Of a stretch of DNA of 51,986 nucleotides, positions 1-48,449 are shown one piece after another. Position 1 is the first letter of the stretch, and each line of letters begins with the position of its first letter. The position numbers and the translations under genes were made by a program. The notes under the pieces were generated by a model, which was not told the origin of the DNA, ran no database searches, and worked only from the letters and a program-made list of their open reading frames with translations. The DNA comes from Desulfosarcina cetonica JCM 12296 (GTDB taxonomy: Bacteria > Desulfobacterota > Desulfobacteria > Desulfobacterales > Desulfosarcinaceae): assembly GCF_001311845.1 (NCBI RefSeq), contig NZ_BBCC01000026.1, positions 1-51,986 on the forward strand, read 5' to 3'.

Positions 1-918
1 GGCCGTTGCCGCGTCCCGGGGACGGACGTACAGCAAAAGCCCTTTTCCCCGGGCGGTGATCAGCTCCCGGGCCTGCTGGAGCTTGCGTCCGCAGTCGCAA
101 AGCAGCGAGCCCATGAAATCCCCCAGAAAACACTCGCGGTGAATCCTTACCAGCACCTCGTCCTCGGGCTGGATAGCTCCCTTGATCAAGGCGATGTAAG
201 CATCATCCGGTGAGAATTCGGATGTGTAGGCGGCCACCTTCAGGGGACCGGCAGCCCTTGGCAGAGAGGTTTGCAGCAGGGTACGCCGGACCAATTGCTC
301 CCGTGCGGTTCGATAGCGAATCAGATCGGCAATGGTAACGATGTTGAGATCATGCGTTTTGGCAAAACGGCAAAGGTCCGGCATCCGGGCCATGCTGCCG
401 TCTTCGTTCATGATTTCACAGATGACACCGGCGGGTTCAAAACCGGCCAGCCGGGCCAGATCCACGGAGCCTTCGGTTTGGCCGGTGCGAACCAGAACGC
501 CGCCGCGCCGCGCCCGCAGGGGAAAAATGTGGCCGGGACGAACGAAATCCGACGGGTTGGCCGTGGGCGACATGGCCTGGCGGATGGTATGCGCCCGATC
601 CTGAGCCGAGATGCCGGTGGTGATGCCACAGGCCGCGTCGATGGAGACCGTGAACGCGGTCTCAAATGGGGAGTTGTTTTCCCGGACCATCGGATTCAGG
701 CCCAGCTGATCCGCTTTTTGCGGCTCCAGGGTCAGGCAGATCAGCCCCCGGCCGTGGATAGCCATGAAATTGATGAATTCGGGTGTGACGGCTTCGGCGG
801 CACAACACAGATCGCCCTCATTCTCACGGCCCTCATCATCGACCAGGATCACCATCCTGCCGTCCCGGATCTCTTGGATAGCAGTTTCGATGCCGACAAT
901 CAGGGAGTCTGACGCCAT
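1..918 (-). CDS. ribBA: Bifunctional riboflavin synthesis protein RibBA (3' end beyond window)
   Basis: 306 codons are visible and the frame is open at the window edge, so the C-terminus is missing. The N-terminal ~200 residues are 3,4-dihydroxy-2-butanone-4-phosphate synthase: the metal/substrate motif [11 protein letters not shown] and a typical RPGHIFPL...[15 protein letters not shown] segment are present. The rest begins GTP cyclohydrolase II, with zinc-ligand cysteines in [20 protein letters not shown]. The enzyme supplies both precursors of riboflavin and hence FMN. The ATG lies 6 nt after the ubiX stop, so it is probably cotranscribed and translationally coupled. Placing it next to ubiX, whose substrate is FMN, suggests a dedicated cofactor supply for the UbiD-family proteins upstream; this role is inferred. 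Confidence 0.95.
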
Positions 919-924
919 GGTCGC

Positions 925-1530
925 CTATGCCCCTTCCGCCCGCAGCATGGTGATGGCATTGTTCAATTTGTGGCTTCCCCACCTTTGAAAACAGCGGTTC
1001 TCAATATGGAACATGTCCAGAACCTTGCCCACGAGGTGGTTGACGATATCGTCTATGGTCTGGGGCAGGCAGTAAAACGCGGGAACCGGTGGAAGAATCG
1101 TCGCGCCCATGTCGGCAAGCTGCAGCATGAGGTTGAGGTGTCCTTTGTGAAAAGGCGTTTCCCGAGCAACAATAACCAGTTTGCGTTGTTCTTTCAGGTT
1201 GACGTCCGCAGCCCGAACGAGAAGGTTGTCATTGTAGGAGTGGGCGATGCCAGAGAGGGTTTTCATGGCACAGGGAATCACCACCATGCCTTCCACCAGA
1301 AACGAACCGCTGGCGATGTTGGCACCGATGTCGCGGATATCGTAGCAGGTGTGGGCCAGGGAAATTACATCGTCCACCGCCCAATTGGTTTCCATGTCGA
1401 TGGTCTTTCGGGCGGCATCCGATATGACCAGATGCGTTTCGATATTGCTATTGGCAAGGGTTTCCAGAAGACGGATGCCGTAAATGGCACCGGTTGCTCC
1501 AGACATCCCGACGACCAGTCTTTTTTTCAT
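925..1530 (-). CDS. ubiX: Flavin prenyltransferase UbiX
   Basis: 201 aa, the usual UbiX/Pad1 length. The N-terminal flavin-binding loop [11 protein letters not shown], the central [20 protein letters not shown] segment and the later RETP and PPVPAFY motifs are all family hallmarks. UbiX attaches a dimethylallyl group to FMN, giving the prenyl-FMN cofactor needed by UbiD-type (de)carboxylases. It sits between a UbiD-family gene (19 nt upstream) and ribBA, so the cofactor is made from the same operon as the enzymes that use it. No missing key segment was noticed. Confidence 0.95.
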
Positions 1531-1549
1531 GGGGCCCCCTTTCGATGGG

Positions 1550-2890
1550 TTATTGGTAGTTCATGGCCACGGTTAGCGCATGCTCGGGAAAACTGATTTT
1601 TTCAAACCCCTCCCGGCGGGGGCGGGTTGCATCGATGCCGATTTTGGCGGTCCGGAATCCCGGTTTTGCCGACGGATCGAGGACCTGCCCGCAAAGACCC
1701 GGAATGACGATCAGATCATCGTCCGGCTGAAAGCGGGTGGCCATGGCCCATTCCACGGCCAGCGGATCCCGAACATCGACATCCTCGTTGACGATGACGG
1801 CTTTTTTAATGGACTGAAACGAGAGCGCCATGGCGAGCAAACGACGGATCTCTCCCGGCCGGGCGCTGTCGATGGAAACGACCACGTGCGAGCCAAAGGT
1901 GCCGGGGACGAAGTGCAGATTGCGGATCGTGGGAAAAAGCATTTTCAGTTTCGGCAGTACATTGAGGCGGTGGACGAAGGCCAAGAGGTGATCCACTTCA
2001 AGGCCCTGGGGCAGCAGGGCTTGAAAGAACGGTGTTTGGTGAAGGGAAATGGATCGGACGTGGATGGTTGGGCTGGCAAAAGAGAGGTAGTAGCCGCTCA
2101 CTTCTCCCAGCACCCCATCGATTTCTTTTTCCGCCGGGTCGATATGGCCTTCGATGATGATTTCGGCCTCAGCCGGTACCTGGAGTTCGGTGGTGGCCGC
2201 CGGCATCAGAACCACGGGTTGGCCGGTCAGCCCGCCCGCGGCACTGAACTTGTCCATATTGCCGGGGACTTTCAGCACCGTGGCAATGACCACTGCCGGA
2301 TCGACTCCGATGGCCACGGCGATCTCCATGGGGGCTCCGGTCCGCCGATGATGCTGGTAGATGTCTGACAGCGGCGGATTGAGCAGGGAAATTCCCAGCT
2401 CGGCCGGGCCTCTGACCTCCAGGCGGTGCAGCCCCCGGCGCATGCCCCCGTTGTTGGGATCCCGGACCGATGAGACCCCGCAGGTAATGAAGGGGGCAGA
2501 ATCCTTGGCATAGTGCGTCAGTACGGGCAGATACTCGCGAAGATCGAAGTTTTTGCCCGCCTCGATCACCCTTCGATCCGGATCACCATTTTGCAGAACC
2601 GGGTCGATCCACTGATCCTGGCTGGGCAGGTGTCCGCTTAAAAGGGTCTCCTCGGAGATGCACAGGGCGCTGGCCAGGCGTCGTTGGGCGCCCAGAATGT
2701 TGCCGACGATGGGCATCTGGTGGCCGTTGACCGTTTCGAAAAGGATGGCCGAACTGTCTTCACGATCCAGTTGGGCCAAAATCGCGGCCACCTCGAACCG
2801 GGGATCGACAGGCGTGCGGATGCGCCGGACATCCCCCTGTTGCTCCAAGTGCTCGATAAACCCCCTTAACCTTCCGATGGGTCTGGTCAT
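1550..2890 (-). CDS. UbiD-family prenyl-FMN-dependent (de)carboxylase, third copy
   Basis: 446 aa from the ATG preceded by GGAGGGG at 5-nt spacing; a TTG four codons upstream would overlap that ribosome site and is not preferred. UbiD-fold features seen: the Arg-bearing GLHRLEV segment and the loop around LGEVSGYY. In UbiD enzymes the catalytic loop normally reads E-x-P-F-G-E; here it is D-G-V-L-G-E, so the first Glu is Asp. It is more diverged than the two 481-aa paralogues in the same operon. It could decarboxylate or carboxylate a related intermediate, or be an accessory subunit. Substrate cannot be read from sequence. Confidence 0.88.
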   Translation of the reverse strand: MTRPIGRLRGFIEHLEQQGDVRRIRTPVDPRFEVAAILAQLDREDSSAILFETVNGHQMPIVGNILGAQRRLASALCISEETLLSGHLPSQDQWIDPVLQNGDPDRRVIEAGKNFDLREYLPVLTHYAKDSAPFITCGVSSVRDPNNGGMRRGLHRLEVRGPAELGISLLNPPLSDIYQHHRRTGAPMEIAVAIGVDPAVVIATVLKVPGNMDKFSAAGGLTGQPVVLMPAATTELQVPAEAEIIIEGHIDPAEKEIDGVLGEVSGYYLSFASPTIHVRSISLHQTPFFQALLPQGLEVDHLLAFVHRLNVLPKLKMLFPTIRNLHFVPGTFGSHVVVSIDSARPGEIRRLLAMALSFQSIKKAVIVNEDVDVRDPLAVEWAMATRFQPDDDLIVIPGLCGQVLDPSAKPGFRTAKIGIDATRPRREGFEKISFPEHALTVAMNYQ

Positions 2891-2980
2891 ATTCCCCTCC
2901 AACCAAAAGAAAGACTAATTTGACGTCTGCAAAGGCGTGATGGTGATTTTTTCGTCTATCCCGTGCTGCCCGTTGCGCCG

Positions 2981-3030
2981 CCTTCCCGGAGAGGCGATTT
3001 TCAACGATGAAAAGCCTCATCCCGGGAAGG
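2981..3030 (-). promoter_or_regulatory. Long intercistronic hairpin between the ppcC-like gene and the third ubiD gene
   Basis: An almost continuous dyad: CCTTCCCGG pairs with CCGGGAAGG, GAGGC with GCCTC, and an inner TTTTCA with TGAAAA. No T-run follows on the minus strand, so it is not a standard intrinsic terminator. It lies in the 157-nt gap that splits the Ppc-like subunit genes from ubiD-ubiX-ribBA. It could be an mRNA stabiliser or partial attenuator setting different levels of the two halves (inference). Confidence 0.55.
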
Positions 3031-3047
3031 ACCGTGTGTCACTGGCG

Positions 3048-3299
3048 TTAGAATTTGCTGACTTCTTTGATCAGTTCGATGGACCAGGGTGTGTCGAGCA
3101 ATTGACCCCGGCCGAGGCGGACCTTGAGAATATCCGAATATTTGGATTCGGATTTGGAGATCAGGGCCTTGGCGTAGAATGAGCGGTATTTGTACCTTCG
3201 ATCGTCGGGGGTGAGTTCGCGGACGACCAATTCCAGCTCCTGATCCTCGGGCACGCTTGCCGGATCTTCCAGGACGAATGTATCGTATTCTCTGGCCAT
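3048..3299 (-). CDS. ppcC: Phenylphosphate carboxylase gamma-subunit-like protein
   Basis: 83 aa (about 10 kDa), matching the size of the small PpcC subunit of phenylphosphate carboxylase. It is acidic at the N-terminus (FVLEDPASVPEDQELEL) with a basic centre (DDRRYKYRS), has no signal peptide or membrane segment, and follows a large UbiD-fold subunit by 12 nt with a clear AAGGAG site. In the characterised phenol-degrading Thauera enzyme, alpha, beta and gamma subunits form the catalytic core. Assignment rests on size, recalled similarity and context between large-subunit genes; the carboxylated substrate may not be phenylphosphate. Confidence 0.75.
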   Translation of the reverse strand: MAREYDTFVLEDPASVPEDQELELVVRELTPDDRRYKYRSFYAKALISKSESKYSDILKVRLGRGQLLDTPWSIELIKEVSKF

Positions 3300-3311
3300 G
3301 TGTTTTTCTCC

Positions 3312-4755
3312 TTAATTTTTGTATCCGTAATTTTCCCAGTTGCTGAGAACTTTTTCCTGAATGTCCTTGGGATAGTTGGTGCTGAAGGCCACCTTCAGGG
3401 GCAAGTCGGACGTCGGCCAGTCCAGCGGGAAGAGACAATCGAACAGAACTTTGGCACCGACGCCCATCTTGCGCTCCTCAGGCGAGGCGTAGGGATTTAA
3501 GGGGGTGCCGATGTCATTTTCATACTTTCGGATACCGCGGATGGGATGGCACTTGGTGGAGAGGGCGTGGATCACTTCATCCTTGTTGTAAATATCGGTT
3601 TTGTCATCCACCACCACGATCATGTGGAACCAGGGGCCCAGTTTACTGCCAAAGGCCAGATTGGCGATTTGCGAGGCGATCCCGCTGTAGGCATGTTTGA
3701 CGCCCACGACCACCATGTGGTGGGTCGACTCGGGCATCATGTAAACACCGGTAATGGGAATGCCCTGACTCTCGAGCAGTTTACGCATCTCCAGGCCGAG
3801 GGAGAAGGAGCGCAGGAGCTGGTTCTCGTCCGTGGGAATGCCCGGATTGCTCACCATGATCATGGGATTGTTGCGGTGGGTAATCGCCTTGATGCGGTAT
3901 ACCGTTCGCGGATCTCGCGGAGAGGTACGATAGCCGGTATATTCACCGAAGGGCGCTTCCAGGATACTGACGCTGGGATGAATTTCACCCTCGATAATGA
4001 TTTCGGCATGGGCGGGAACTTCCAGGTCGCAGGTTTCGCACTTGACCAGTTCGACCGGTTCTCCGTGCAGCATGCCGGCCAGCTGATCCTCGGGAATCTG
4101 CGAGGGGGCGCACGAGGCGATGCTGGAGAGCGGATCGGCGGCAAGGACCACGGCAAAGGGCATGGGTTCGTTGCGCGGCACGTGCTTGCCGTGAAACATT
4201 TTGCCCATGTCGGAGAAGGGCAGCACCGGACCGACCATGGTCTTTTCATCGAACACCATGATGCGGTACATGCCCCAGTTGATCGCCCGGGTGTCCGGGT
4301 CCTTGGCGACCACGAAATGCCAGGTGGCCAGATAGCGGCCGCCGTCGCCTTCATGAACCATCGGTCCGGGCAGATGGAAGAGATTGGCATCGTCGCCGAG
4401 CAGGATATTTTCCTTGCAGGGTGCATCGGTGGCGTCGACCATCACCGGGGGAATGGGTTTCTCTTGGGTTCGGCGCACATACTCGTCGGCGATTTCCGGA
4501 ATGGTAGCGTTCGGGTTCATCCCCATGCCAACGGCCAATCGACGATACGTGGACAAGGGACCTCCGAGGGCTTCGAACCCCGGATAATCGGTGATGTTTT
4601 GAAGTGGGGGCGGGCAGCTGGTTTTCACAAACTCTTCTGACAATGGCGCCCAGTTCGAGATCCCAGTCGACTTCCTGCTCGACCGTGACCAGGTCCCCAC
4701 TCTCTTTCAATCGGGCGATAAATTCCCGGTTGTCTTTCGGACTGTTATAGCTCAT
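3312..4755 (-). CDS. Phenylphosphate carboxylase alpha/beta-type UbiD-fold large subunit (copy 2, frame broken)
   Basis: Opens at ATG with a GGGAG site (MSYNSPKDNREFI...). The frame breaks at about 4596-4606. Comparison with the tandem paralogue shows two missing bases (APYFK read as APTSK, and one A lost from a run); restoring both gives 481 aa, exactly the paralogue's length. Catalytic-loop residues are intact: Arg in INWGMYRIMVFDEKT and both Glu in EAPFGEYTGY. The protein should bind prenyl-FMN from UbiX and add or remove a ring carboxyl group together with the second large subunit and the gamma subunit. I see a sequencing artefact, not a pseudogene. Confidence 0.85.
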
Positions 4756-4805
4756 GTTGAACTCCCGTTAAATGTGTCGCGCTTTTTGTTCATGATCGCG
4801 TCTTC

Positions 4806-6250
4806 TTATTGTCCGTATCCGTAATTCTCCCAGTTGCTGAGAACCTTTTCCTGAATGTGTTGCGGGTAGTTGGTGCTGAAGGCCACTTTAAGCGGCAGAT
4901 CGGATGCCGGCCAATCCAGCGGGAAGAGACAGTCAAAGAGCACCTTGGCGCCCTGGCTCATCCTGCGTTCAGCCGGCGAGGCATACGGATTTAGCGGTGT
5001 TCCAACCTGATTGTCATACTTATGGATCCCTCGGACCGGATGACATTTGGTGGACAAGGCATGAATCACCTCATCTTTACTGTAGATGTCGGTTTTTTCA
5101 TCCACGACCACGACCATGTGGAACCAGGGACTTAATTTGCTACCAAATATCAGGTTGGCGATCTGTGAGGCGATACCGGTGTAGGCCGGTTTGACGCCCA
5201 CCACCACGAGATGGTGGGTGGATTCGGGCAACATGTAGACGCCCGTGATGGGAATCCCCTGGCTTTCGAGCAGTTTGTGCATTTCCAGCCCAAGCGAAAA
5301 CGAGCGTAATAACTGGCCCTCGTCGGTCGGTACCCCCATGTTGGATACCATCATGATCGGGTCGTTGCGGTAGGTGATCGTTTTGACCCGGTACACGGTT
5401 CGTTTTTCTCTTGGCGAGGTGCGATAGCCGGTATATTCGCCAAAGGGGGCTTCCTCAATCATGACATTGGGGATGACTTCGCCTTCGATAATGATTTCCG
5501 AATGTGCAGGCACATACAGATCGCAGGTTTCACATTTGACCAGTTCCACTGGCTCGCCTCGCAGCATACCGGCAAGTTGATCCTCGGGAATCGGCGATGG
5601 GGCACAGGCGGCCAGACTGGAGATGGGATCGGCGGACAGTACCGCAGCAAATGGCATGGGCTCATTCCTGGGGACATATTTCCCATAAAACATTTTGCCC
5701 ATATCGGAGAAGGGCAGTACCGGGCCCACCATGGTCTTCTCATCAAACACCATCATGCGGTACATGCCCCAGTTAATGGCTTGGGTGTCGGGGTCTTTTG
5801 ACACAACAAAATGCCAGGTCGCCAGATAACGACCGCCGTCGCCATCATGGACCATGGGACCTGGCAGGTGAAGCAGATTGGCGTCGTCGCCGGTCAGGAT
5901 GTTGGCTTTGCAGGGCGCCTCGCTCGCTCGATGATTACAGGATCGATGGGCTTTTCCTTGGTCCTCTGAACATAGGTGTTGGCGATTTCAGGAATGGGTG
6001 TGGCCGCATCCAGCCCCATGGCGATGGCCAATCGCCGATACGTGGCCATGGGTGCGCCGAATGCTTCAAATTCAGGATAATCGGTAATTTTCTTGAAGTA
6101 GGGGGCGGACAACTGGCCTTCACATACTCTTCTCACAATGGCGCCCATTTCAAGATCCCAATCGACTTCCTGGTTGACAGTGACCAGATCGCCGGACGCC
6201 TTCAATCGTTCGATGAATTCTCGATTGTCTTTTGGACTGTTGTAGGACAT
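4806..6250 (-). CDS. Phenylphosphate carboxylase alpha/beta-type UbiD-fold large subunit (copy 1, frame broken)
   Basis: Starts MSYNSPKDNREFIERL behind GGGAG. One base is missing near 5919-5930, inside a GAGC-rich stretch: the first part ends in VIIERA and the second resumes at SEAPCKANILTGDDANLLH. Repaired length is 481 aa. It is strongly similar along its length to the next gene, with Arg in INWGMYRMMVFDEKT and both Glu in EAPFGEYTGY. The pair looks like a tandem duplication that now serves as the two large subunits of one heteromeric carboxylase, as PpcA and PpcB do in phenol degraders. I cannot tell which copy is alpha and which is beta. Confidence 0.85.
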
Positions 6251-6271
6251 TTAATTTCTCCCTTCTTCGCC

Positions 6272-6819
6272 CTAAGACAGGCCGCCGTTTGATAATTGGG
6301 TGGTCACCGTTTCCCATTTGTCCTGGGCTTTGAGGATGAATTCGGCCAGTTCGCGGACCACCCCCTGGCCCCCGTCGGATTTCGTGATCAGGGCGGCCAC
6401 GGCCTTGGCCTCGACGGCGCCGTTGGCCGGTGCCACGGGGAAACCGACCCGCCGCATGACACCCAGGTCGATCATTTCATCGCCGACATAGCAGAAATCC
6501 TGATCCGTCAGGCCGGACTCCTTTTCAAATTCGTCCAGCTTGGCGATTTTGGCGCTGGTTCCCCAGCGTTTGTCCGGCGGGACATTGTAGATTTCACCGA
6601 CCACATCCATGGCCCGGGAGACCTTGCTGGTCAAAAACGAGACACCGATGCCGCCGGCCATCAGGCTTTGCAGCCGATTCGGTCAGCCAGGGAAAAACAC
6701 TCGGATTTGGTGCCTTCGTTGGTGTAGTACAAGGTGTTGTCCGTTAAGATGCCATGGATGTCGAGGATGACGAATTTGACTGCTTTTGCCTGTTCGATCG
6801 CCGTTTGTGTATCAGTCAT
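6272..6819 (-). CDS. ppcD: Phenylphosphate carboxylase delta-like HAD protein, copy 2 (frame broken)
   Basis: Starts MTDTQTAIEQAK behind GGGAG. A base is missing near 6664-6669 (an A from an AAA run before GCCTG); repaired length is 182 aa, about the 18 kDa of PpcD. The fold is HAD subfamily IIIA, KdsC-like: motif I is LDIHGILTD, and the late motif CYVGDEMIDLGVMRR carries the expected G-D-x-x-x-D. Motif I is D-x-H, not the D-x-D of active HAD phosphatases. In phenylphosphate carboxylase the delta subunit is thought to handle phosphoryl release. The gene is 21 nt before the first large subunit. Confidence 0.78.
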
Positions 6820-6839
6820 TTTTTTCTCCCTATATCCGG

Positions 6840-7397
6840 TTACTTGTAGCCCATCTTGGTGACCTTCTCGACCCAGCCGTCCCATTTGCCCATGGATCGC
6901 AGAATAAATTCGCACGATTCCCGGATCGGTCCGCGACCACCCGGCGCCGAAGTGATATAGTCAGCCGCCGCTTTTACTTCCGGAATGGCGTCGGCTGTGG
7001 CGATGGCGAGTCCAGCCTTCTTCATCGCTTCCAAATCCGTTATTTCACAGCCGACATAGGCCACCGCCTCATCCGTAATATCCAGCTCTTTGGTCAGCTC
7101 CTCGATCTTGGCCACTTTGTCATCCACCTTGTAGTAGTACTTGTCGAGCTTCAGCTCTTTGGCGCGGAAATACCCTTCACCATCAACGGAAGTAGCATCC
7201 AGAAAGGCGATGCGGATCCCGTTGGCCATCAGCGAAAGGTCGCCGAATCCATCCATGTGCCAGAAACCATAGCGGCGGTTGCCCTCGACATCGCAGTAAA
7301 ATGTGTTTGGCGTGAGCACGCCGTGAATATCATGCCCGAACAGTTTTACTTTTTCTGCTTTTTTCATGGCACTGGCGGTGTCTTTTTGCGCTTCCAT
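6840..7397 (-). CDS. ppcD: Phenylphosphate carboxylase delta-like HAD protein, copy 1 (first gene of operon)
   Basis: 185 aa from the ATG with AAGGAGG upstream (MEAQKDTASAMKK); a longer reading upstream lacks such a site. It is KdsC-like: motif I is FGHDIHGVLTPN and the late motif is YVGCEITDLEAMKKAG. As in the next gene, motif I is D-x-H. In addition the late motif has G-C-E-I-T-D where its partner has G-D-E-M-I-D, so an acidic metal ligand is replaced by Cys. This copy is therefore less likely to be a working phosphatase and may be structural or substrate-binding. It is probably the promoter-proximal gene of the operon. Confidence 0.75.
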   Translation of the reverse strand: MEAQKDTASAMKKAEKVKLFGHDIHGVLTPNTFYCDVEGNRRYGFWHMDGFGDLSLMANGIRIAFLDATSVDGEGYFRAKELKLDKYYYKVDDKVAKIEELTKELDITDEAVAYVGCEITDLEAMKKAGLAIATADAIPEVKAAADYITSAPGGRGPIRESCEFILRSMGKWDGWVEKVTKMGYK

Positions 7398-7822
7398 CAC
7401 GACCTCCTTCATCTGAGCCGTTATAGGGGTAGTAGTGGGATCCGTTGCGCTGTCCAATTTGGCGAAAAGAAAAATGAATCCGGTTGTTGGATGCGGTCAA
7501 CGGGTCGAGACTGAATGACACTGTTGGGAACGTCACTGTGTTTCCCAGGAAGAAATCGATAGAGCGGGCCGAAAGGCGTTGCCGGTTCATGTCCGATATT
7601 GGCGAAGATACGCGTAGGATGTCAATTTCATTAATATTATGCAAACCATAAAATCAAGTTATAGCTTTATGCGTAAATGATTAACGTGAATAATCATAAG
7701 TTGAGCTTATAGTTGAAATAAAATTTATGATTTTGACATTTCACGAATTCTCATTAATGCTTCCGGCAGTATTCTGCCATATCCTTCCTTACCCCAATGA
7801 CAATTTTCAAAGGAGAATTCGT
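7398..7822. promoter_or_regulatory. Divergent promoter region between carboxylase operon and CoA ligase operon
   Basis: 425 nt without a convincing gene. The central part (about 7620-7760) is much more AT-rich than its surroundings, as expected for a divergent control region. A TTGACA occurs on each strand: 7733-7738 on plus, pointing at the CoA ligase, and about 7617-7622 on minus, pointing at the HAD genes. Neither has a good -10 at 16-18 nt, so exact promoters are uncertain. No sigma-54 box was recognised. Confidence 0.5.
7656..7708. promoter_or_regulatory. Two similar dyads, candidate operator pair
   Basis: AAGTTATAGCTT at 7656-7667 and AAGTTGAGCTT at 7698-7708 are each near-palindromic and resemble each other. 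Their starts are 42 bp apart, close to four helical turns, in the AT-rich centre of the divergent region. This fits binding of a dimeric regulator to both sites, but no regulator gene is adjacent in the window. Confidence 0.3.
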
Positions 7823-9157
7823 ATGGACCCATCCGTATACTGGAATCCGATACTGGAAACGATGCCGCGAGAAAAGCTGCAGGCGTTGCAGCTGAAGAAA
7901 TTCAAGCGTATTTTCACGTGGGCCTATGATAATTCACCCTTTTACCGTCGGTTATATCGTGATGCAGGCATCGAACCCGGCGATATCAAGACCTTCGCCG
8001 ATATTCGCAAGGTTCCCAAAATCGAAAAATCGATGATGCGAGAAATACAGGGGCCGGGGAAGAACAACTATCCGTATGGCGATATTCTCTGTGTGCCCAA
8101 AACCGATGTTTGTTCCTATCGCCAGACCAGTGGGACCACCGGTCAGCCGGTCTACCAGGCCGACTCCTGGCAGGACTGGGAATGGGGCATTGAAGCATAC
8201 AGCCACGCGCTCTGGGCTCAGACCTATCGCAATACCGACCGCATGCTGCTGCCCTTTGGTTACAATATTTTCGTCGCCTTTTGGGCGGCGCATTATGCTG
8301 CCGAGAAACTCGGCGTTGAAGTGGTTCCCGGCGGCGTGCTCAACACCGAGGCACGCATCCTGAAAATGCAGGAACTCGAAGCCAACGCCATGGCGGCCAC
8401 GGTCAGCTATGTGTTGAACATGGGACGGGTGGCTCGGGAAAAAATGGGTATTGATCCGGCCAAGGACTTGAATATCCAGAAAATTACTGTCGCCGGCGAA
8501 CCCGGCGGAAGCATCCCGGCCACCCGTCAACGCATGGAGGAGCTATGGGGTGCCAAGGTGTATGATCAGTGCGGCAGCACGGAGATCGGCCATTGGGGCT
8601 GGGAATGCCATCACCAGGCGGGGCTGCATGTCAACGAGGCGTTTTTCCTTTTTGAAATCGAAGACCTGGAGACCGGTGAGATCATCACCGAACCGGGCAA
8701 AAAGGGGCGTCTGGTGGCCACCGCCCTGGATCGCACGGCTCAACCCTGTATCCGTTTCGACGCCAAGGATATCATTCAGTGGAACGCGGAACCCTGTGCC
8801 TGTGGCCGTTCGTTTTGGCGACTGGACGGCGGCATCATCGGCCGGGCCGATGACATCACCAAGGTAAAAGGTGTTCTTTGGGCGCCATCGGCCGTGGAGG
8901 AAGTGGTTCGCGGGTTTGCCCAGCTCAGTGACGAGTACCAGATTATTCTCTCCAAGAAGGGCGATGCCGACCAGATCGAACTCAAGGTGGAATTGATGCC
9001 CGGTTATGAGAACAACGAGGCGGATGTTCGGCACGCGCTTTTGGCCAAATTACGGCTTCAGACCAACTTGAATTATCTCCTCGATTTTAAAACCTATGGC
9101 GACCTGCCGCGGTTCGAAGGCAAGGGAAAGCGTTTTCAGGATTTACGGCACAACTAG
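7823..9157 (+). CDS. PaaK-type aryl-CoA ligase
   Basis: 444 aa, the normal length of phenylacetate-CoA ligase-type enzymes; ATG chosen for the AAAGGAG site 7 nt upstream. Adenylate-forming motifs in order: TSGTTGQP (ATP P-loop, ~residue 105), DQCGSTEIG, CIRFDAKD and the late GRADDITKVKGV hinge. A CACGRSFWRL cysteine pair typical of the family is present. It would activate an aromatic or arylacetic acid to its CoA thioester using ATP. Being divergent from the carboxylase operon, it most likely takes the carboxylation product (for example 4-hydroxybenzoate or another arylcarboxylate), but substrate specificity cannot be read here. Confidence 0.9.
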   Translation: MDPSVYWNPILETMPREKLQALQLKKFKRIFTWAYDNSPFYRRLYRDAGIEPGDIKTFADIRKVPKIEKSMMREIQGPGKNNYPYGDILCVPKTDVCSYRQTSGTTGQPVYQADSWQDWEWGIEAYSHALWAQTYRNTDRMLLPFGYNIFVAFWAAHYAAEKLGVEVVPGGVLNTEARILKMQELEANAMAATVSYVLNMGRVAREKMGIDPAKDLNIQKITVAGEPGGSIPATRQRMEELWGAKVYDQCGSTEIGHWGWECHHQAGLHVNEAFFLFEIEDLETGEIITEPGKKGRLVATALDRTAQPCIRFDAKDIIQWNAEPCACGRSFWRLDGGIIGRADDITKVKGVLWAPSAVEEVVRGFAQLSDEYQIILSKKGDADQIELKVELMPGYENNEADVRHALLAKLRLQTNLNYLLDFKTYGDLPRFEGKGKRFQDLRHN

Positions 9158-9174: not shown

Positions 9175-9366
9175 ATGAAACCGGAATTCGATCTTAACGC
9201 AATGGTGCAAAAAATCCAGACCCTTAAACAAAACGCCGCCGAGCTGAAAGCCGTGGCGGGTGGAATCGTCGCGGTGGATCGCAACATCAATCGCATTTCG
9301 GCCAGTATCCGGGTGATGGAACTGGATATCTGTGACGCGGCGGACATTCTGTTGGCAGGGGATTGA
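9175..9366 (+). CDS. Small hypothetical protein
   Basis: 63 aa, acidic to neutral, with no signal peptide or membrane segment. The sequence (LKQNAAELKAVAGGIVAVDRNI) suggests an alpha-helical, perhaps coiled-coil, protein. It starts 17 nt after the CoA ligase stop with a GAAAGGAAAGG site at suitable distance, and precedes the outer-membrane protein gene, so it is probably cotranscribed. I do not recognise a family. Confidence 0.6.
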   Translation: MKPEFDLNAMVQKIQTLKQNAAELKAVAGGIVAVDRNINRISASIRVMELDICDAADILLAGD

Positions 9367-9403
9367 GGTCGATGGAGAACGCAAAGAGAAAGGATTGGCC
9401 AAG

Positions 9404-10341
9404 ATGATGCCAAGATCATTGAAAGGGTTGGTCTGCTGGATCGGTTGTGTCGGATGGGTTTTGGGGGCCGTGTTTTCTTCCGAGGCCGCCACGCTGGGAT
9501 CGCACTACCCTTTCGGCGGCGAAGGGGTGCTCGCCGCCACCGTCCCCCCACCGGGGTTTCACTACCGAGTCTACAACACCTGGTATAATCCCACCACCTT
9601 GAAGGATGACAATGGCGACGACGAAGATGTCGGTCTGGACCTGGACGTCTTTTCCATGGTGCACCGTTTCATCCATGTGACTGAGAAAAAAATTCTCGGT
9701 GCCGACTATTTCTACGATATCATCGTTCCCCTGGTCGACAAAGATCTCACCATTGCCGCGGCCGGGGTATCCGACAGCCAGTCCCTGGCCTTGGGGGACA
9801 CGGTTTTCGAACTCTTCGGCTTGGCCTGGCATCAGCCCCGCTGGGATGCGGCCTTCGCCTGGCGGTGATTGCACCGACCGGTGAATACGACCTTGACAAA
9901 CCCGCCTCACCGGGTTTGGGCTACTGGTCGGGCATGCTGACCTTGGGCGGTACCGTCTATTTTGATGAAGCCCGATCGTGGTCCTTCAGTGCCTTGACGC
10001 GGACGCTGGTCAACGGCGAACAGGACGATACGGATGTGCGACCCGGATCCGAGTTCGTCGTTGAATACGGCCTGGGCAAAGAAATTCCGATCAATGACAA
10101 ACTCCTTGTGCGGCCGGGTATCTCCGGTTGTGCCTACTGGCAGTTCGAAGACGACAGCGACGATGGCCCGGGCACCTTGGCCGATGAACGCAAGGAGAGC
10201 TATGCCCTGGGAGCGGAAATTAACTTCTTCTGGCTGCCGCCGACCCTGTTCCAGGTCAACCTCAGGGCCTTGCGCGAGTTCGGCGCCAAGAACACCGTCC
10301 AGGGGTCGCAATTCGTCCTGACCCTGACGAAATCGTGGTAG
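9404..10341 (+). CDS. Outer-membrane protein of the phenol MetA-degradation type (frame broken)
   Basis: Begins MMPRSLKGLVCWIGC with a signal peptide ending near SSEAA. A missing G at about 9864 splits it: the first part ends AAFAWR, the second resumes VIAPTGEYD; repaired length is 312 aa. The alternating hydrophobic pattern (SWSFSALTRTLVNG, FVVEYGLGKEI, QFVLTLTKSW at the very end) and terminal aromatic fit an outer-membrane beta-barrel. This family often sits in aromatic-compound gene clusters and is thought to help hydrophobic substrates cross the outer membrane. Position after the CoA ligase supports that role here (inference). Confidence 0.75.
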
Positions 10342-10508
10342 CCAATATCGAGTAGCCAATGAGGGGCGGTCTCGCTTTTATATTGATTCCCTGGCTATGG
10401 ACTTTATCCGGTGGATGGATTGCGATTTGCCTTTGAGATGTTATTTTTTTTACATTACCCAGACGATCAGGACCGTATCAAGCGTGGTGTAAGAAAAAGG
10501 GGGACAAT

Positions 10509-11266
10509 ATGGACAGCAAGATTGCACTGGTTACCGGGGGCAGCCGGGGACTCGGCAAAAACACGATTCTCCACTTGGCACAGCGGGGTGTTGACGCAAT
10601 TTTCACCTACCACAGCAAGGCGGAAGCGGCCCGGCAGGTGGTTGCCGAGGTCGAGCGGACCGGACGCAAGGCAGTGGCGCTTCAATTGGATACGGGAGAC
10701 ACCAAAGCCTTTGCGGATTTTGCAAAACAGGTAAAACAGGCGTTAGAAGCACACTGGCAACAGGACCATTTCGATTTCCTGGTGAATAACGCCGGTGTCG
10801 GTCTGCGCGCGGCTTTCAGCGAAACCACCGAGGAACAGTTTGACCGCCTGATGAATATCAATTTCAAGGGCGTTTTTTTTCTGACCCAATCCGTGTTGCC
10901 GCTTATTGCCGACGGCGGCCGCATCGTCAACATCTCCAGTGGTCTGGCTCGTTTTTCATTACCGGGTCATGCCGCCTATGCGGCTGCAAAGGGTGCCGTG
11001 GAGGTCCTTACGCGCTATCTGGCAAAGGAGTTGGGAGATCGTCGGATTTGCGTCAACGCGGTTGCTCCCGGTGCCATCGAGACGGACTTCGGCGGCGGTG
11101 TGGTCCGCGATAACCGGGACGTGAACACCTTCATCGCGTCCCAGACCGCCTGGGGCGCGTGGGGCTGCCCGATGATATCGGGGCGATGGTTGCCTTGCTG
11201 CTTTGTGAGGGGAACCGGTGGATCAACGGCCAACGGATCGAGGCGTCCGGCGGCATCTTCCTATAG
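10509..11266 (+). CDS. Short-chain dehydrogenase/reductase (frame broken near 3' end)
   Basis: 252 aa after repairing one lost C at about 11149-11151 (QTALGRVGLPDDIGAM instead of QTAWGAWGCPM), which restores a normal ending INGQRIEASGGIFL. NAD(P)-binding TGGSRGLG, NNAG, catalytic Ser in NISSGLA and YAAAK are all present, so the enzyme should be active. The sequence resembles FabG-like SDRs. It follows the outer-membrane protein by 167 nt and has its own GGGGG ribosome site, so it may or may not share the transcript. Substrate unknown; a hydroxy/ketoacyl-CoA or alcohol intermediate of the aromatic pathway is possible. Confidence 0.88.
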
Positions 11267-11499
11267 GTGGCGAGGTCGCCTTTGATGGGCGGCGGCGATG
11301 CAAGCACAAGCATAGCTTGAAACCTTTACGCTTCCGTCGTTGCCCTTTCTTCTTTGTCTCACCCCGACTTGCTTTCCTTTCGCAAAAAAAACTCATCGAT
11401 TTCTTTCATCGGCCGATGAACGTATTGTTGGTTTAATCTGAACTTATTCGAAACTTGTCAGAACGATTCATTCCCAAAGCTTCCCTAAAGGTGGCCTCC

Positions 11500-14058
11500 A
11501 TGCGCTTATTTTCTCGTCTTCGATCAAAATTGACATTGATTGGAATTCTGTTAAGTGTTGCGCCCTTGATTTGCCTGGCCGTTGCCGCTTTCATGATCTC
11601 AGGTAACATGAAAGGTGTTTTCTATAAGGAACTCAGCCAGATTGTTACTTCCGACCTGGATCATATCGTCCAGGGGGTTCAGGCGGTATGCAGCGCACAG
11701 CAGGAAACCATTCGGGACCAACTGAAGCACTCACTCAAACTTGCCGAGACGGTTGTCGCTCAAATTGGCGCGCCGCGTTTATCCGACCAAGAGACAATGT
11801 GGAAAATTACCAACCAATTCACCAAGGCAAAGCAAACCGTGCAGTTGCCCAAACTGATGCTTGGGGATCAATGGACCGGAAACAATGAGAAGCTCGAAAT
11901 ACCTTCCTTGGTCGTCGATGAGGTTCAGCGCATCGTGGCCGCCACCTGCACGATATTTCAACGCATCAATCCGGCTGGCGATATGTTGCGGGTCTCCACC
12001 AATGTCCTGAAAAAGGACGGCAAGCGAGCCATTGGAACCTACATCCCGCATCACAACCCTGATGGAAAACCCAATGCGGTTGTTGATGCCGTTTTGAAGG
12101 GAAAGACGTTTCAGGGGAGGGCTTTCGTCGTCAATCAATGGTATATCACGACCTATGCGCCGATTTACAATTCCGCTCGTGAAATCATCGGGATGCTGTA
12201 TGTGGGGATTCCCCAAGAGAGTGTCAAAAGTCTGCGTGAGGCGATTTTGTCTACCCGGGTGGGCGAGCAGGGTTACGTCTTCGTTATCGATTCCAACGGC
12301 GATTATGTCATCTCGCGGGAGGGGCGGGACGATGGCCGCAATATCCTTGATGCCAAGGGCGTAGATGGCGCCCAACCCATCAAAGCGATCATCGGCAAAG
12401 CCCTGAGTCTTCAATCCGGTCAGATGGCTGGCCATGCTTACCAGTGGCAGGCCAGCGGTGACAGCGCTCCCAGGCATTACGTTTCACGCATCACCTATTT
12501 CAAGGATTGGGATTGGATCATCGTCGCCAACGCCTACCGGGATGAAATTTTCGGTGTTCAGGATGTTATCGACGGTCTTTTCCATAAAGGGTTCATCCTG
12601 ATCCTTGCCATCATTGGTGCCACCATCACGGTTACCATGGTCGTGTGGCTGATGGTGGCCCGCGGCATTGTCCGGCCCATTGAAGAGGCATCCAAATTCG
12701 CTATTTCGCTCTCAAACGGAGATTTCCGCAACACGCTTGAAACGGGTAAGCGCCGATTCGGCCGGCAGTCCACCGAAATTTCGCACCTGATGGCGTCATT
12801 GAATCACCTGGTCGCTAATTTGGCGACGATGATCCGTGAAGTTAAAAACAGCGTTTCCACCCTGAACGTCTCGTCCGGCGAACTGGGTAATATTTCAAAT
12901 GAGATGAACCAGGGTGCCGACCAAACATCGGGAAGGGCCGACGCCGTTGCGGCGGCATCGACGCAGATGAGTTCAAACATGACCACCGTTGCGGCAGCGA
13001 CCGAACAGGCCGCAAGCAATGTCGACATTGTGGCCCATTCGACGGAAGAAATGAGTGCAACGGTCAAGGAAATCGCCAGCAACTCCGAACAGGCGCGAAT
13101 CATGACCCAAAATGCCGTGGATCGGGCCAAAGATGCCTTTACCATGGTTGATGAACTGGGAACGGCCGCCCAGGCCATCGACAAGGTTACCGAGGTGATT
13201 ACCGAGATATCCGAACAGACCAATCTTTTGGCACTTAACGCTACGATAGAAGCCGCCCGTGCCGGTGACGTTGGCAAAGGATTTGCCGTGGTGGCCAACG
13301 AGATCAAGGAATTGGCCGGGCAAACCGCCCGAGCCACCAATGATATTCGAGAAAAAATCGGTAATATTCAGCAATCCACAGCAGATACGGTGAAAGAAAT
13401 AAGACAGATTTCCTCGGGTATTGTCGATGTGAACGAAATCGTCGGCAGCATTGCCGCTGCGGTTGAAGAACAGTCCGTTTCCACCGGGAATATTGCCGGG
13501 AATGTGATCCAGGCATCCCAGGGGATTCAGGAAGTCAGCCAAATGATCGCTCAAAGCTCTTCCGCTTCCGCCGATATATCAAAGGAAATCGAGTACGTTA
13601 CGCTGTCCGCCGGTGAAATGGCCACGCGAAGCGCACAGGTGCGGATCAGTGCCCAGGATTTGCAAAAGCTGTCCGGACGCTTATCGGAGGCCGTTTCCCG
13701 ATTCGATATTCCCGAAGCCCGGTTTGATATTGGCGCGGTCAAGAGCGTCCATCTTCAATGGCGGTCCCGGCTGGAAGAATTGCTGCATGGTCGTGAAACA
13801 TTGAAGCGCGATGCCGTTGACGATCACCATCAATGCGCTTTCGGGAAATGGTATGACAGCATCGATACACCCGAGCTGACCGAAAGTGAAGCCTTCAAGC
13901 TCGCCGGCGCCCATCACAAGGCGGTCCACGCACAGGCCCGGCAGATCGTCGACAGCTATCATCGGGGTGAAAAAGGAAAAGCCAACGCGTTGATGACTAC
14001 TTTTGAGGCGGAGCGGGAAAAGCTATTCTCAGCCCTTGATGAACTGTATCTGCACTGA
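11500..14058 (+). CDS. Methyl-accepting chemotaxis protein with periplasmic Cache and C-terminal CZB domain
   Basis: 852 aa. ATG chosen for AAAGGTGG upstream; an upstream TTG has no such site. Order: TM1 (~residues 12-32), a large periplasmic Cache-type sensor (~35-360, with the [18 protein letters not shown] signature), TM2 ([19 protein letters not shown]), HAMP, the signalling hairpin with tip [19 protein letters not shown], and a C-terminal zinc-binding CZB domain ([21 protein letters not shown]). CZB domains link chemotaxis to zinc/oxidant sensing. Its closeness to the aromatic cluster raises the possibility of chemotaxis to an aromatic acid, but nothing in the sequence proves the ligand. 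Confidence 0.93.
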
Positions 14059-45358: not shown

Positions 45359-46267
45359 GTGATCGTTGTCGTTGGTGAAATTTTGATCGATCGGTTTCCA
45401 TCCTATGAGCGTATCGGGGGGGCGCCGTTCAATTTCGCCTTTCATCTTAAAAAACTGGGTTTTTCGGTGCGTTTTTTCAGCCGGGTGGGAGATGACCGCC
45501 ATGGCCGGCGGATTGTCGCCCGGTTGGGTGAACATGGCTTTGCCACCGACGATATCCAGGTTGACCGGAACCATCCGACCGGAACGGTTCAGGTGGATCT
45601 GGACGCAGACGGCGTTCCCCATTTCGATATTCGCCGGAATGTGGCCTACGACCACCTTGCGTTGGGGACGGCCGTCCATGGGAAAGCGGCTCGCCAGGCC
45701 CGCATGATCTATTTCGGCAGCCTCTTGCAACGCACGGATCCGGGTTGCGAAAGGGTTCAGGCGTTTCTCCAACAGGCGGGCCGGCAGACCACCTGTTTCC
45801 TCGATATCAACATGCGGCCCCCCCATGTCAATCCACGATCCCTGGCGGCATCTCTGGTTCACGCCGATTTGCTCAAACTCAATGAGGAGGAATTGGCCGA
45901 TCTGATGCTTCGGTTGGGCGGCCCCACGGATGCCGCGGACAGCCTTGCCTGGTTGATGGATACCTACGCGATTCCCATCCTGGCCCTCACGCGGGGAAGC
46001 CATGGCAGCACATTTGTCTCCAAGGATGCGCAGATCGATCAGCCTGCCGACCGGGATGGCGACATCGTTGACACGGTGGGCGCCGGGGATGGCTATGCGG
46101 CGATTTTGGCCGCCGGCTTTCTTCTGCGGCGCCCCTGGCCGGAGACGATCGCCCAGGCTTCCCGCTTTGCCGGTGGGATTTGCCGCATTCCCGGCGCCGT
46201 GCCCGAGGATGAGGGTATGTACGCCGATGTTCGACGGTTGATGAAAGGACACTTCGATGACCGTTAA
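45359..46267 (+). CDS. PfkB-family sugar kinase, probable fructokinase
   Basis: 302 aa, starting at GTG (VIVVVGEILIDRFP). PfkB features: the N-terminal GGAPFNFAFHLKKLG substrate motif, and near the C-terminus DTVGAGDGYAAILAAGF with the catalytic Asp. The family's GAGD-x-F is GAGDGY here. It overlaps the sucrose-phosphate synthase gene by 11 nt. In that company the best guess is fructokinase, recycling fructose to fructose-6-phosphate, the acceptor used by the synthase. Confidence 0.85.
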   Translation: MIVVVGEILIDRFPSYERIGGAPFNFAFHLKKLGFSVRFFSRVGDDRHGRRIVARLGEHGFATDDIQVDRNHPTGTVQVDLDADGVPHFDIRRNVAYDHLALGTAVHGKAARQARMIYFGSLLQRTDPGCERVQAFLQQAGRQTTCFLDINMRPPHVNPRSLAASLVHADLLKLNEEELADLMLRLGGPTDAADSLAWLMDTYAIPILALTRGSHGSTFVSKDAQIDQPADRDGDIVDTVGAGDGYAAILAAGFLLRRPWPETIAQASRFAGGICRIPGAVPEDEGMYADVRRLMKGHFDDR

Positions 46268-48446
46268 CGGACCTTATATTCAACTGTTCAGCCTTCACGG
46301 GTTGATTCGTGCCACCAACCTGGAGATGGGCCGTGATGCAGACACCGGCGGCCAGGTCAAATACGTGCTGGAGCTGGGGCGCTGTCTCAGTGCCCGGGAG
46401 GACATCGGCCAGGTGGATCTTTTTACCCGACTGATCGCCGACAAACGCGTTTCCGTCGACTACCGCCAACCGATCGAGGTGGTGAATGATAAGTTCCGCA
46501 TCATTCGCATCCAGTGCGGCGGGCGCCAATATATTCGTAAAGAGCTGTTGTGGCCCCATCTCGAGGAGTATGTGGACAAGACCATCAAATTCATCAAACG
46601 CAGCGGCGTCATGCCGGACATCGTTCACGGCCATTATCCCGATGCCGGTTACGTGGCCGCCCAGTTGGCCGACAACCTGGGGCTGCCTTTTATTTACACC
46701 GGGCATTCCCTGGGACGCGCCAAAAAAGCGCGGCTCTTGGATCAGGGCATGACCGAGGCGGAGATGGTCAAGAAGTTCAAGATCGATTGGCGCATTGCCG
46801 TTGAGGAACAACTTCTGGCTCGGGCCGACTTGGTGATCACCAGCACCCGTCACGAAATCGATGAGCAATATGGCCTTTACCACAACAGAAATGTCCCGGA
46901 GTATCAGGTCATCCCACCTGGTATTGATGTCGAAACATTTTATCCGTATTACCATCAGCACTTCGACAATGACATCCAGACGGAAAAGGCCCGCTATGCC
47001 CAGGCCTCGATTCTCAAGGAACTGAACCGGTTTTTCATGAATCCGGAAAAGCCGCTGATTCTGGCCCTCAGCCGTCCGGACAAACGCAAGAACATCTCGG
47101 GGCTTGTTCAGACCTATGGCGATGATCTGGAATTGCAGGCCATGGCCAACCTGGCTGTGTTCGCCGGCTTGCGCAAGGACATCGACGCCATGGCGGACAA
47201 CGAGAAGGAAGTCCTCACCGAGATGCTGCTGGCCATGGACAAATATGACCTTTACGGCAAGATGGCCATCCCTAAAAAGCATGATTTCGAATACGAAGTG
47301 CCGGCGTTGTATCGGATTGCCGCGGAAACGGGCGGGGTGTTCATCAACCCCGCCTTGACCGAACCCTTTGGCCTGACCCTCCTGGAGGCCTCGGCTACCG
47401 GCGTGCCCATCGTGGCCACCAACGACGGCGGTCCCAACGACATTATCCGCAACTGCGAAAATGGCATCCTCGTGGATGCCACCGATACGCAGCAGATTGC
47501 CGACGCCCTGCGCAAAATCATCACCGACAAGGAACTTTGGACCCGCTATTCAAAAAACGGCATCATGAACGTACGCAAGTACTACACCTGGGAAAGCCAT
47601 GCCGCATCCTATGCCGAGCGGATCGGAGGACTCATGGACGATAATCAGAAGCTTGAACTCAAAGCGGCCCGACCCGCCGATGCCGTTGGCCGTCGACTCA
47701 TGCGCCTGACCCATTTCTTGGTCACCGATATTGATAACACCTTGATTGGGGACGATAACTCGCGGCTTGCGGACCTCATGGAAATCTTGCAACGCCATCG
47801 GCAGCAAATCGGATTTGGCGTGGCCACCGGTAGAACCTCCGAATCGGCAAGGACAATATTGGCCAAATTCGGAATTCCCGATCCGGACGTGATCATCTGC
47901 TCGGTGGGCAGCGCGCTTTTCTACGGCCGCAGCGAAACGCCCGATCCAGGCTGGGCCAGTCATATCAGCAGTCGATGGAATCGCGAGAAAATCGTTGACC
48001 TGCTCAAGTCTGTTGATTTTCTCGAATACCAGGAGGAAGAAAATCAGCGCCGGTTCAAGGTCAGTTATTACATGGATCCGGACAAGGATCGGTTGGCTCT
48101 GGTTCACGATCGCCTGCTGGCGCACCGCTGCCGACACACCCTGATCTACTCCCACGACCGGTATCTGGACATTCTGCCTTTTCGGGCGTCCAAGGGCAAG
48201 GCCATTCGCTACCTGGGCTATCGGTGGGAGATTCCATTGGCCAATTTTATCGTGTGCGGGGATTCGGGCAATGACGAAGAGATGCTGCGTGGTGAGCCGC
48301 GGGGTGTGGTGGTGGGCAATTACAGCCACGAACTCGAGGGGTTGAAAGGCGGCCGAAATGTCTTTTTTGCCACGCAGCCCTGTTCCGGTGGCATTCTCGA
48401 AGGGCTGCAACACTATCGCTTTATCGAAGAAATCAAAGGAGCCTGA
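46257..48446 (+). CDS. sps: Sucrose-phosphate synthase with C-terminal sucrose-phosphate phosphatase domain
   Basis: 729 aa, the two-domain size. GT4 synthase part (~1-460): RDADTGGQVKYVLELGRCLS near the start, HGHYPDAGY, HSLGRAKK, SRPDKRKNISGL and the EX7E motif in TEPFGLTLLEASATGVPI. HAD phosphatase part (~475-725) keeps its catalytic set: DIDNTLIGDD, TGRTSESA, Lys in SKGKAIRYLG, and GDSGNDEEML, so it should be active. It makes sucrose-6-phosphate from a nucleotide glucose plus fructose-6-phosphate and then dephosphorylates it. AAAGGA is 7 nt upstream of the ATG. Confidence 0.9.
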   Translation: MTVNGPYIQLFSLHGLIRATNLEMGRDADTGGQVKYVLELGRCLSAREDIGQVDLFTRLIADKRVSVDYRQPIEVVNDKFRIIRIQCGGRQYIRKELLWPHLEEYVDKTIKFIKRSGVMPDIVHGHYPDAGYVAAQLADNLGLPFIYTGHSLGRAKKARLLDQGMTEAEMVKKFKIDWRIAVEEQLLARADLVITSTRHEIDEQYGLYHNRNVPEYQVIPPGIDVETFYPYYHQHFDNDIQTEKARYAQASILKELNRFFMNPEKPLILALSRPDKRKNISGLVQTYGDDLELQAMANLAVFAGLRKDIDAMADNEKEVLTEMLLAMDKYDLYGKMAIPKKHDFEYEVPALYRIAAETGGVFINPALTEPFGLTLLEASATGVPIVATNDGGPNDIIRNCENGILVDATDTQQIADALRKIITDKELWTRYSKNGIMNVRKYYTWESHAASYAERIGGLMDDNQKLELKAARPADAVGRRLMRLTHFLVTDIDNTLIGDDNSRLADLMEILQRHRQQIGFGVATGRTSESARTILAKFGIPDPDVIICSVGSALFYGRSETPDPGWASHISSRWNREKIVDLLKSVDFLEYQEEENQRRFKVSYYMDPDKDRLALVHDRLLAHRCRHTLIYSHDRYLDILPFRASKGKAIRYLGYRWEIPLANFIVCGDSGNDEEMLRGEPRGVVVGNYSHELEGLKGGRNVFFATQPCSGGILEGLQHYRFIEEIKGA

Positions 48447-48449
48447 GCC

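Follow-up and report, generated by a model that had tools for sequence, protein, structure and literature searches.

At one end of a contig from the sulfate reducer Desulfosarcina cetonica JCM 12296 lies a run of UbiD-like genes accompanied by phosphatase-like, flavin and CoA-ligase genes, and the question it raises is whether these constitute a new kind of aromatic carboxylation system or a variant of one already known. The stretch analysed, referred to below as the window, is the entire contig C26 (51,986 bases); the draft genome to which it belongs totals 7.09 Mb in 558 contigs and is 86.78% complete with 4.92% contamination. An initial annotation of the window considered these genes the best candidate for an undescribed system. 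That view is not supported: the same gene set occurs in the pps-ppc operon annotated in Azoarcus sp. KH32C, and the D. cetonica locus is the known set for anaerobic phenol degradation in rearranged form, not a new kind of system. It is probably a phenylphosphate carboxylase (Ppc)-type locus by which phenol or a closely related phenolic compound is used anaerobically, its genes rearranged by comparison with known operons.

Carboxylase and cofactor genes of the window

The minus-strand run (window 7457-1) carries, in order of transcription, HAD1, HAD2, UbiD-A, UbiD-B, a gamma subunit, UbiD3, UbiX and RibBA, while a PaaK-like ligase and an outer-membrane protein diverge from it on the plus strand. 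UbiD-B (3312..4755, with a frame break at around 4.61 kb) matches the phenylphosphate carboxylase alpha model TIGR02723 with 636.6 bits, above the cut-off of 564.6 and well outside the range of chance. UbiD-A (4806..6250, broken at around 5.9 kb) scores 552.3 bits with its 393-aa piece and a further 128.6 with its N-terminal piece. Against the beta model UbiD-B and UbiD-A yield 187 and 173 bits, respectively, the cut-off being 469. On these profile matches both large subunits are assigned to the alpha family. The two 481-aa large subunits first described are thus present as genes but not as open frames, each being split once and attaining 481 aa only if read through. Similarly, three UbiD proteins are indeed encoded but comprise alpha, a second alpha (alpha') and UbiD3, with no beta in the window.

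In a tree of 72 alpha-like rows, which took in no AbcA (benzene) or naphthalene carboxylase sequences and no named aniline carboxylase sequences, UbiD-A and UbiD-B emerge as sisters (support 100/95), and the next to join the pair is the alpha of Desulfobacterales bacterium MO_071.B1 (100/99). Because the copies are sisters and the MO_071.B1 sequence joins them from outside, the tree places the tandem duplication within the D. cetonica lineage. Both copies keep the Arg and the Glu-x4-Glu motif of UbiD proteins (NWGMYR and EAPFGE), which we take to be catalytic; the latter is found in all 52 alpha rows, the two from the window included. In UbiD3 (1550..2890), Asp replaces the first Glu of this motif. 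UbiD3 passes TIGR00148 (284 bits, cut-off 244.85) and belongs with neither alpha (65 bits) nor beta; its candidacy as the beta subunit was rejected at 111.8 bits against the beta cut-off of 469.

The 83-aa gamma subunit (3048..3299) is recognised by PF09662 (53.1 bits, cut-off 25) and falls short of TIGR02725 (57.1 bits, cut-off 135.55); the KH32C gamma passes both. Its predicted fold is five-stranded and confident (pLDDT 92.1), and a Foldseek comparison of the model with the PDB gave no match at E <=0.001, the best having an E of 1.0.

Both delta-like HAD proteins that had been proposed are present, but HAD2 (6272..6819) is split by a single frame change at around 6.66 kb. HAD1 (6840..7457), characterised through TIGR02726 (107.2 bits), KdsC structures and its motif columns, is a delta-like paralogue with degenerate catalytic motifs. 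HAD2, in which motifs II-IV are intact, is the candidate delta subunit; its C-terminal piece scores 78.9 bits with TIGR02726, and its two pieces are 74% and 81% identical to the MO_071.B1 HAD2. The TIGR02726 cut-off (281.95) is passed by KH32C PpcD (366.8 bits) and is missed by both window proteins, by the MO_071.B1 HADs (104.8 and 129.6 bits), whose locus has pps genes, and by the HAD of another locus, L026 (162.4 bits). Since the HADs miss this model, only alpha and beta are filed, on profile evidence, as PpcABCD members and the locus as a whole is called Ppc-type.

Catalytic motifs were counted from aligned columns in distinct HAD sequences from loci L014-L122. In all 25 HAD1 sequences the motif II Thr is replaced by Asp, and the first Asp of motif IV by Cys (20), Ser (3) or Tyr (2). 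Both residues, whose roles we likewise take from the family at large, are kept in HAD2 (27/27) and in single delta subunits (22/22). HAD1 of the window bears the same losses (Asp in motif II, GCE in motif IV) and has DxHG as its motif I, and the HAD2 pieces retain the residues. Given the loss of these catalytic residues HAD1 is probably not a phosphatase, and a structural or substrate-holding role may be envisaged for it. At motif I, a His occupies the +2 position (DxHG) in all 74 distinct HAD sequences, KH32C PpcD having the usual Asp (DVDG).

The gamma subunit, third UbiD, UbiX and riboflavin gene are present as first described, on the minus strand. UbiX (925..1530; PRK06029 261.4 bits, cut-off 188) is the flavin prenyltransferase, the family that makes prenylated FMN. 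The RibBA assignment also stands (1..918; TIGR00506 ribB 252.4 bits, cut-off 177.45; 69% identical to MO_071.B1 RibBA over query residues 4-301), but the gene is truncated by the contig end. Opposite the run, the predicted PaaK-type CoA ligase is found at 7727..9157 (+), with an alternative start possible at 7823. It matches PF14535; with two PaaK equivalog models it scores 232 and 220 bits, short of their cut-offs of 700 and 646, respectively. This AMP-forming enzyme is likely a 4-hydroxybenzoate-CoA ligase. The outer-membrane protein is of family PF13557 and divergent as expected, but is positioned at 9332..10341 (+), outside the 925-9157 originally delimited, and in two frames (40.7 and 101.3 bits, covering profile positions 5-93 and 97-241). 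The overall picture of a PpcABCD-like carboxylase is supported, as are its companions: UbiX, a gene for flavin synthesis, a PaaK-like ligase and an outer-membrane protein of family PF13557.

The beta subunit and a probable contig junction

The absence of a beta subunit from the genome is ruled out by a gene at 3813-5221 (+) of contig C168, which matches TIGR02724 with 551.8 bits (cut-off 468.95) and a further 75.9 after a frame break. Its first 402 residues are 87% identical to the MO_071.B1 beta. The island cannot, then, be called self-contained, as had been suggested: its beta lies on another contig, and the assembly yielded no orthologue of phenylphosphate synthase.

The right end of C168 carries, in the direction of the window operon, an open stretch of 64 aa that is similar to the end of RibBA, a type-2 IPP isomerase (IDI2) and, at 12134-12235 (-), a 34-aa remnant of a beta C-terminus. 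The isomerase is 63% identical to its MO_071.B1 counterpart, which passes TIGR02151. In direct alignment with MO_071.B1 RibBA the 64-aa stretch scores 69, the maximum in 500 shuffles being 47. The gene order in MO_071.B1 is UbiD3, UbiX, RibBA, IDI2, beta, so that the remnant stands where that locus has an intact beta. On account of the RibBA-like end and this order, C26 and C168 probably adjoin inside ribBA. Three observations count against such a junction: no exact overlap of the two contig ends was found, a search of the genome with MO_071.B1 RibBA did not return the C168 end, which was seen in direct alignment only, and the rest of the gene might instead be a partial ribBA match on contig C214. 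The arrangement is most simply read as one in which beta formerly followed IDI2, as in MO_071.B1, and now sits about 8 kb further on, on the opposite strand, having left a scar.

C168 also bears, at 6196-6582 (-), a match to the riboflavin-kinase-family gene (PF01982, DUF120) of KH32C, 34% identical over some 125-130 residues. Genes at 9559-10755 (+) and 10801-12000 (-) of the same contig resemble one of locus L065, presumably, as judged by eye and with no profile score, of the UPF0261/Tm-1-like family; such genes recur near phenol-type loci, among them L044, L046 and L065.

Comparison with known systems and related loci

A plasmid search returned one close annotated relative, ppcA of Azoarcus sp. 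KH32C plasmid pAZKH (NC_020548.1), 58% identical. The operon there encodes, in order, a PEP-utilizing enzyme, a PEP/pyruvate-binding protein, a CBS protein, ppcB, ppcD, ppcA, ppcG, UbiD, UbiX, a DUF120 protein (PF01982), a NUDIX protein, an AMP-binding protein and a transporter (PF13557). Shared with D. cetonica are the carboxylase subunits (alpha, beta, gamma and a HAD delta), UbiX and a third UbiD, as well as a flavin gene, a ligase resembling PaaK and a member of PF13557. Identities to the KH32C proteins are 58-61% for the alphas, 58% for the C168 beta, 55% for UbiX, 39% for gamma, 38% for the ligase, 37% for UbiD3, which occupies the same place, 37% for the HADs and 32% for the first piece of the outer-membrane protein, set against the transporter at the operon end. 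By these matches the third UbiD, the flavin gene, the PaaK-like ligase and this outer-membrane family are assigned to the known system. Unlike D. cetonica, KH32C has a single alpha, a single HAD whose motifs are the usual DxD and GDD, beta within the operon and ppsABC in front; and it has riboflavin-kinase-family and NUDIX genes where D. cetonica has RibBA and IPP isomerase.

The nearest relative found, the MO_071.B1 locus (L047/L014), shares with D. cetonica the HAD1-HAD2-alpha-gamma genes and the UbiD3-UbiX-RibBA-IDI2 block, but has a single alpha, beta directly after IDI2, and PpsB- and PpsA-like genes beside alpha. Desulfatiglans anilini, also a sulfate reducer, has scattered carboxylase subunits and a PaaK-like ligase in its phenol cluster; by contrast, its carboxylase alpha is only 33% identical to the Thauera subunit and, in the excerpts available from these papers, a gamma homologue is unreported (PMC6114531, PMC7500099). 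The Thauera aromatica enzyme, compared here by description and not by sequence, has the same alpha-beta-gamma-delta make-up but with the four subunits in one operon (excerpted from PMC6114531). In culture N47, again by description only, several UbiD-like subunits of naphthalene carboxylase are clustered, with neither HAD phosphatase nor gamma mentioned in the excerpted text (PMC12016498). Excerpts of further literature on the field were also consulted (PMC13101534, PMC10570749, PMC10865409, PMC1924859, PMC10715001). UbiD genes on EbN1 plasmid 2 were set aside as a comparator, not being a ppc locus.

For a broader comparison, 79 loci in named genomes were taken from the best 80 of 111 relatives. 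The 47 whose alpha was at least 57% identical to two queries are termed core loci (48 with another query set), and 21 of the 47, with at least 4.5 kb before and at least 2.5 kb after alpha, are termed well-bounded. Beta, gamma, UbiD3 and UbiX accompany alpha in every well-bounded locus (21/21), and genes resembling phenylphosphate synthase lie within the fetched stretch of 16. A HAD1+HAD2 pair is present in 8 of them and a single delta in 13, the figures for all core loci being 20 and 21 with six cut before that place; the idea that the HAD pair is unique to the window is thereby ruled out. PaaK-like genes are found in 9/21 well-bounded loci, IPP isomerase in 3/21 and RibBA in none; RibBA occurs in one core locus, that of MO_071.B1. 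Tandem alphas are seen in none of the 47 other core loci. With the second query set, IPP isomerase is present in 6/48 core loci and a PF01982 gene, of the CTP-dependent riboflavin kinase family, in 22/48. Of the 37 loci that extend 1.5 kb beyond UbiX, 15 have the PF01982 gene no more than 1.5 kb from UbiX and on its strand (for example L054, L060 and L065), a placement suggestive of a dedicated FMN supply for prenyl-FMN.

The contrast with the classic phenol operon initially drawn largely falls away, because the annotated KH32C operon already holds these genes: three UbiDs and flavin supply occur there, and the HAD pair is widespread among core loci. What stands is the tandem alpha, the relocated beta with its scar and the RibBA and type-2 IPP isomerase genes beside UbiX; these, together with a degenerate HAD1 next to an intact HAD2, are real departures from known operons. 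In open-licence PMC papers we found nothing on alpha duplication, HAD proteins with Ppc, riboflavin kinase/DUF120 with UbiX/UbiD, or a link of IPP isomerase to UbiX and prenylated FMN. Alphas reaching E 1e-100 or better were present in only one (G031) of 59 relatives (12 from the genus, 17 from the family and 30 from the order) and in 30 of 395 genomes drawn evenly from the phylum, D. cetonica included. On this sparse distribution the locus is classed as an accessory island.

Substrate, mechanism and alternative explanations

From this gene set we infer the substrate, the reaction, the make-up of the complex and the roles of HAD1 and UbiD3. A HAD phosphatase beside a carboxylase would point to a phosphorylated substrate rather than a bare hydrocarbon. 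Phenol would be phosphorylated to phenylphosphate by a kinase not found in the assembly, HAD2, as delta subunit, would strip the phosphate to leave enzyme-bound phenolate, and a prenylated-FMN core of alpha (A or B), the C168 beta and gamma would add CO2 to the ring, giving 4-hydroxybenzoate. The PaaK-like ligase would then form 4-hydroxybenzoyl-CoA, which a 4-hydroxybenzoyl-CoA reductase-like enzyme would convert to benzoyl-CoA for BamA-type enzymes, the genes for these last steps lying elsewhere in the genome. FMN and the prenyl donor would be supplied by UbiX and RibBA and, on C168, by the type-2 IPP isomerase and the riboflavin-kinase-family gene. BamA itself was detected at 548 bits (cut-off 464).

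In favour of a phenol-type locus we counted the alpha and beta matches above equivalog cut-offs, gamma as recognised by PF09662, and the KH32C gene set. To these come the neighbours of alpha in well-bounded loci, synthase-like genes among them, the Pps-like genes of MO_071.B1, the UbiD residues kept in both alphas and the purifying selection on them, and the presence of BamA and an HcrA-like gene in the genome. Several observations weigh against it. Gamma and both HADs lie under their equivalog cut-offs, three genes of the operon (HAD2, UbiD-A and UbiD-B) are frame-broken, and the HcrA-like gene scores 886 bits, short of its cut-off of 995; two genes beside it we take, by eye and with no profile score, to be its partner subunits. 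No PpsA or PpsB orthologue was found in the 86.78% complete assembly, 13% of the genome being missing, so that this is no proof of absence. The best PpsA match (query from L065) covers only the C-terminal 100 or so residues at about 40% identity and the best PpsB match (query from MO_071.B1) reaches around 29-30%, although the Pps proteins of these two loci are 63-64% alike. None of the PPDK_N genes (13 matches on 8 contigs) was accepted as phenylphosphate synthase; C198 and C203, which gave the best PpsB matches, show 27-31% identity across the parts that align, and their frames start, by eye, with a different kind of sequence.

The alternative that survives best, though we consider it unlikely, is that a different phosphorylated or amidated ring is carboxylated (aniline, catechol, hydroquinone or cresol), perhaps with one substrate for each alpha copy. 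The copies have diverged to 82% identity, with a longer branch for B than for A (0.16 and 0.094) and, at the 168 columns that 96% or more of 50 further alphas conserve, six departures in B compared to three in A; that no phenylphosphate synthase was found would fit as well. Yet both alpha and beta match the equivalog models of the phenol enzyme, and the aniline carboxylase of D. anilini, as excerpted from PMC7500099, consists of two beta-type subunits with no alpha or gamma.

It is less probable still that the locus is a decaying relic, with beta displaced and with pseudogenes for both alphas and HAD2. Such decay would account for the single frame break in each of HAD2, UbiD-A, UbiD-B, the outer-membrane protein and the C168 beta, for the beta remnant and for no synthase having been found. 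However, of four strong tRNA-synthetase loci (PF00133) elsewhere in this assembly, one is divided between two frames (C99), two contain a stop (C2 and C260) and only one is clean, and a second ribBA copy on contig C1 is broken as well; for this reason the frame breaks are read as probable sequence errors rather than decay. The omega value between the two alphas, 0.066 by a simple counting method over 368 codons, at a dS of around 1.5 that is close to saturation, likewise argues against decay and points to strong purifying selection. A hydrocarbon carboxylase of the benzene or naphthalene type is very improbable: AbcA and the naphthalene carboxylase subunits are related to PpcA, but the latter at no more than 46% identity (excerpts of PMC12016498), compared to 58-61% to KH32C PpcA for the window alphas, which reach the PpcA model and have HAD phosphatases and gamma as conserved neighbours.

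Elsewhere in the window, 10509-11285 (+) encodes a short-chain dehydrogenase-like protein whose C-terminus apparently continues in another frame, likely a further sequence error. At 46257-49898 (+) a fusion of a glycosyltransferase with a sucrose-6F-phosphate phosphohydrolase domain (PF05116, 260 bits) is followed by a weak alpha-amylase-family protein, the two probably serving compatible-solute metabolism.

Returning to the phenol-type locus, we suggest tentatively that Ppc of Desulfobacterota is an extended form of the enzyme. In this form a conserved dead HAD1, serving in structure, phenylphosphate binding or hand-over, would stand beside an active HAD2, and the locus would bring its own prenyl-FMN supply (RibBA, riboflavin-kinase family, type-2 IPP isomerase and UbiX). 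In D. cetonica the tandem alphas would share one relocated beta to give two isoenzymes, whose substrate might come from a kinase different from the known phenylphosphate synthase. Anaerobic phenol carboxylation serves as a model of how CO2 is fixed on aromatic rings, and its enzyme is difficult to reconstitute. Recombinant enzyme from sulfate reducers may work only with additional proteins, and the conserved but degenerate HAD1 and the neighbouring cofactor genes hint at which these could be. The tandem alphas, for their part, provide a natural test of how this subunit determines the choice of substrate.

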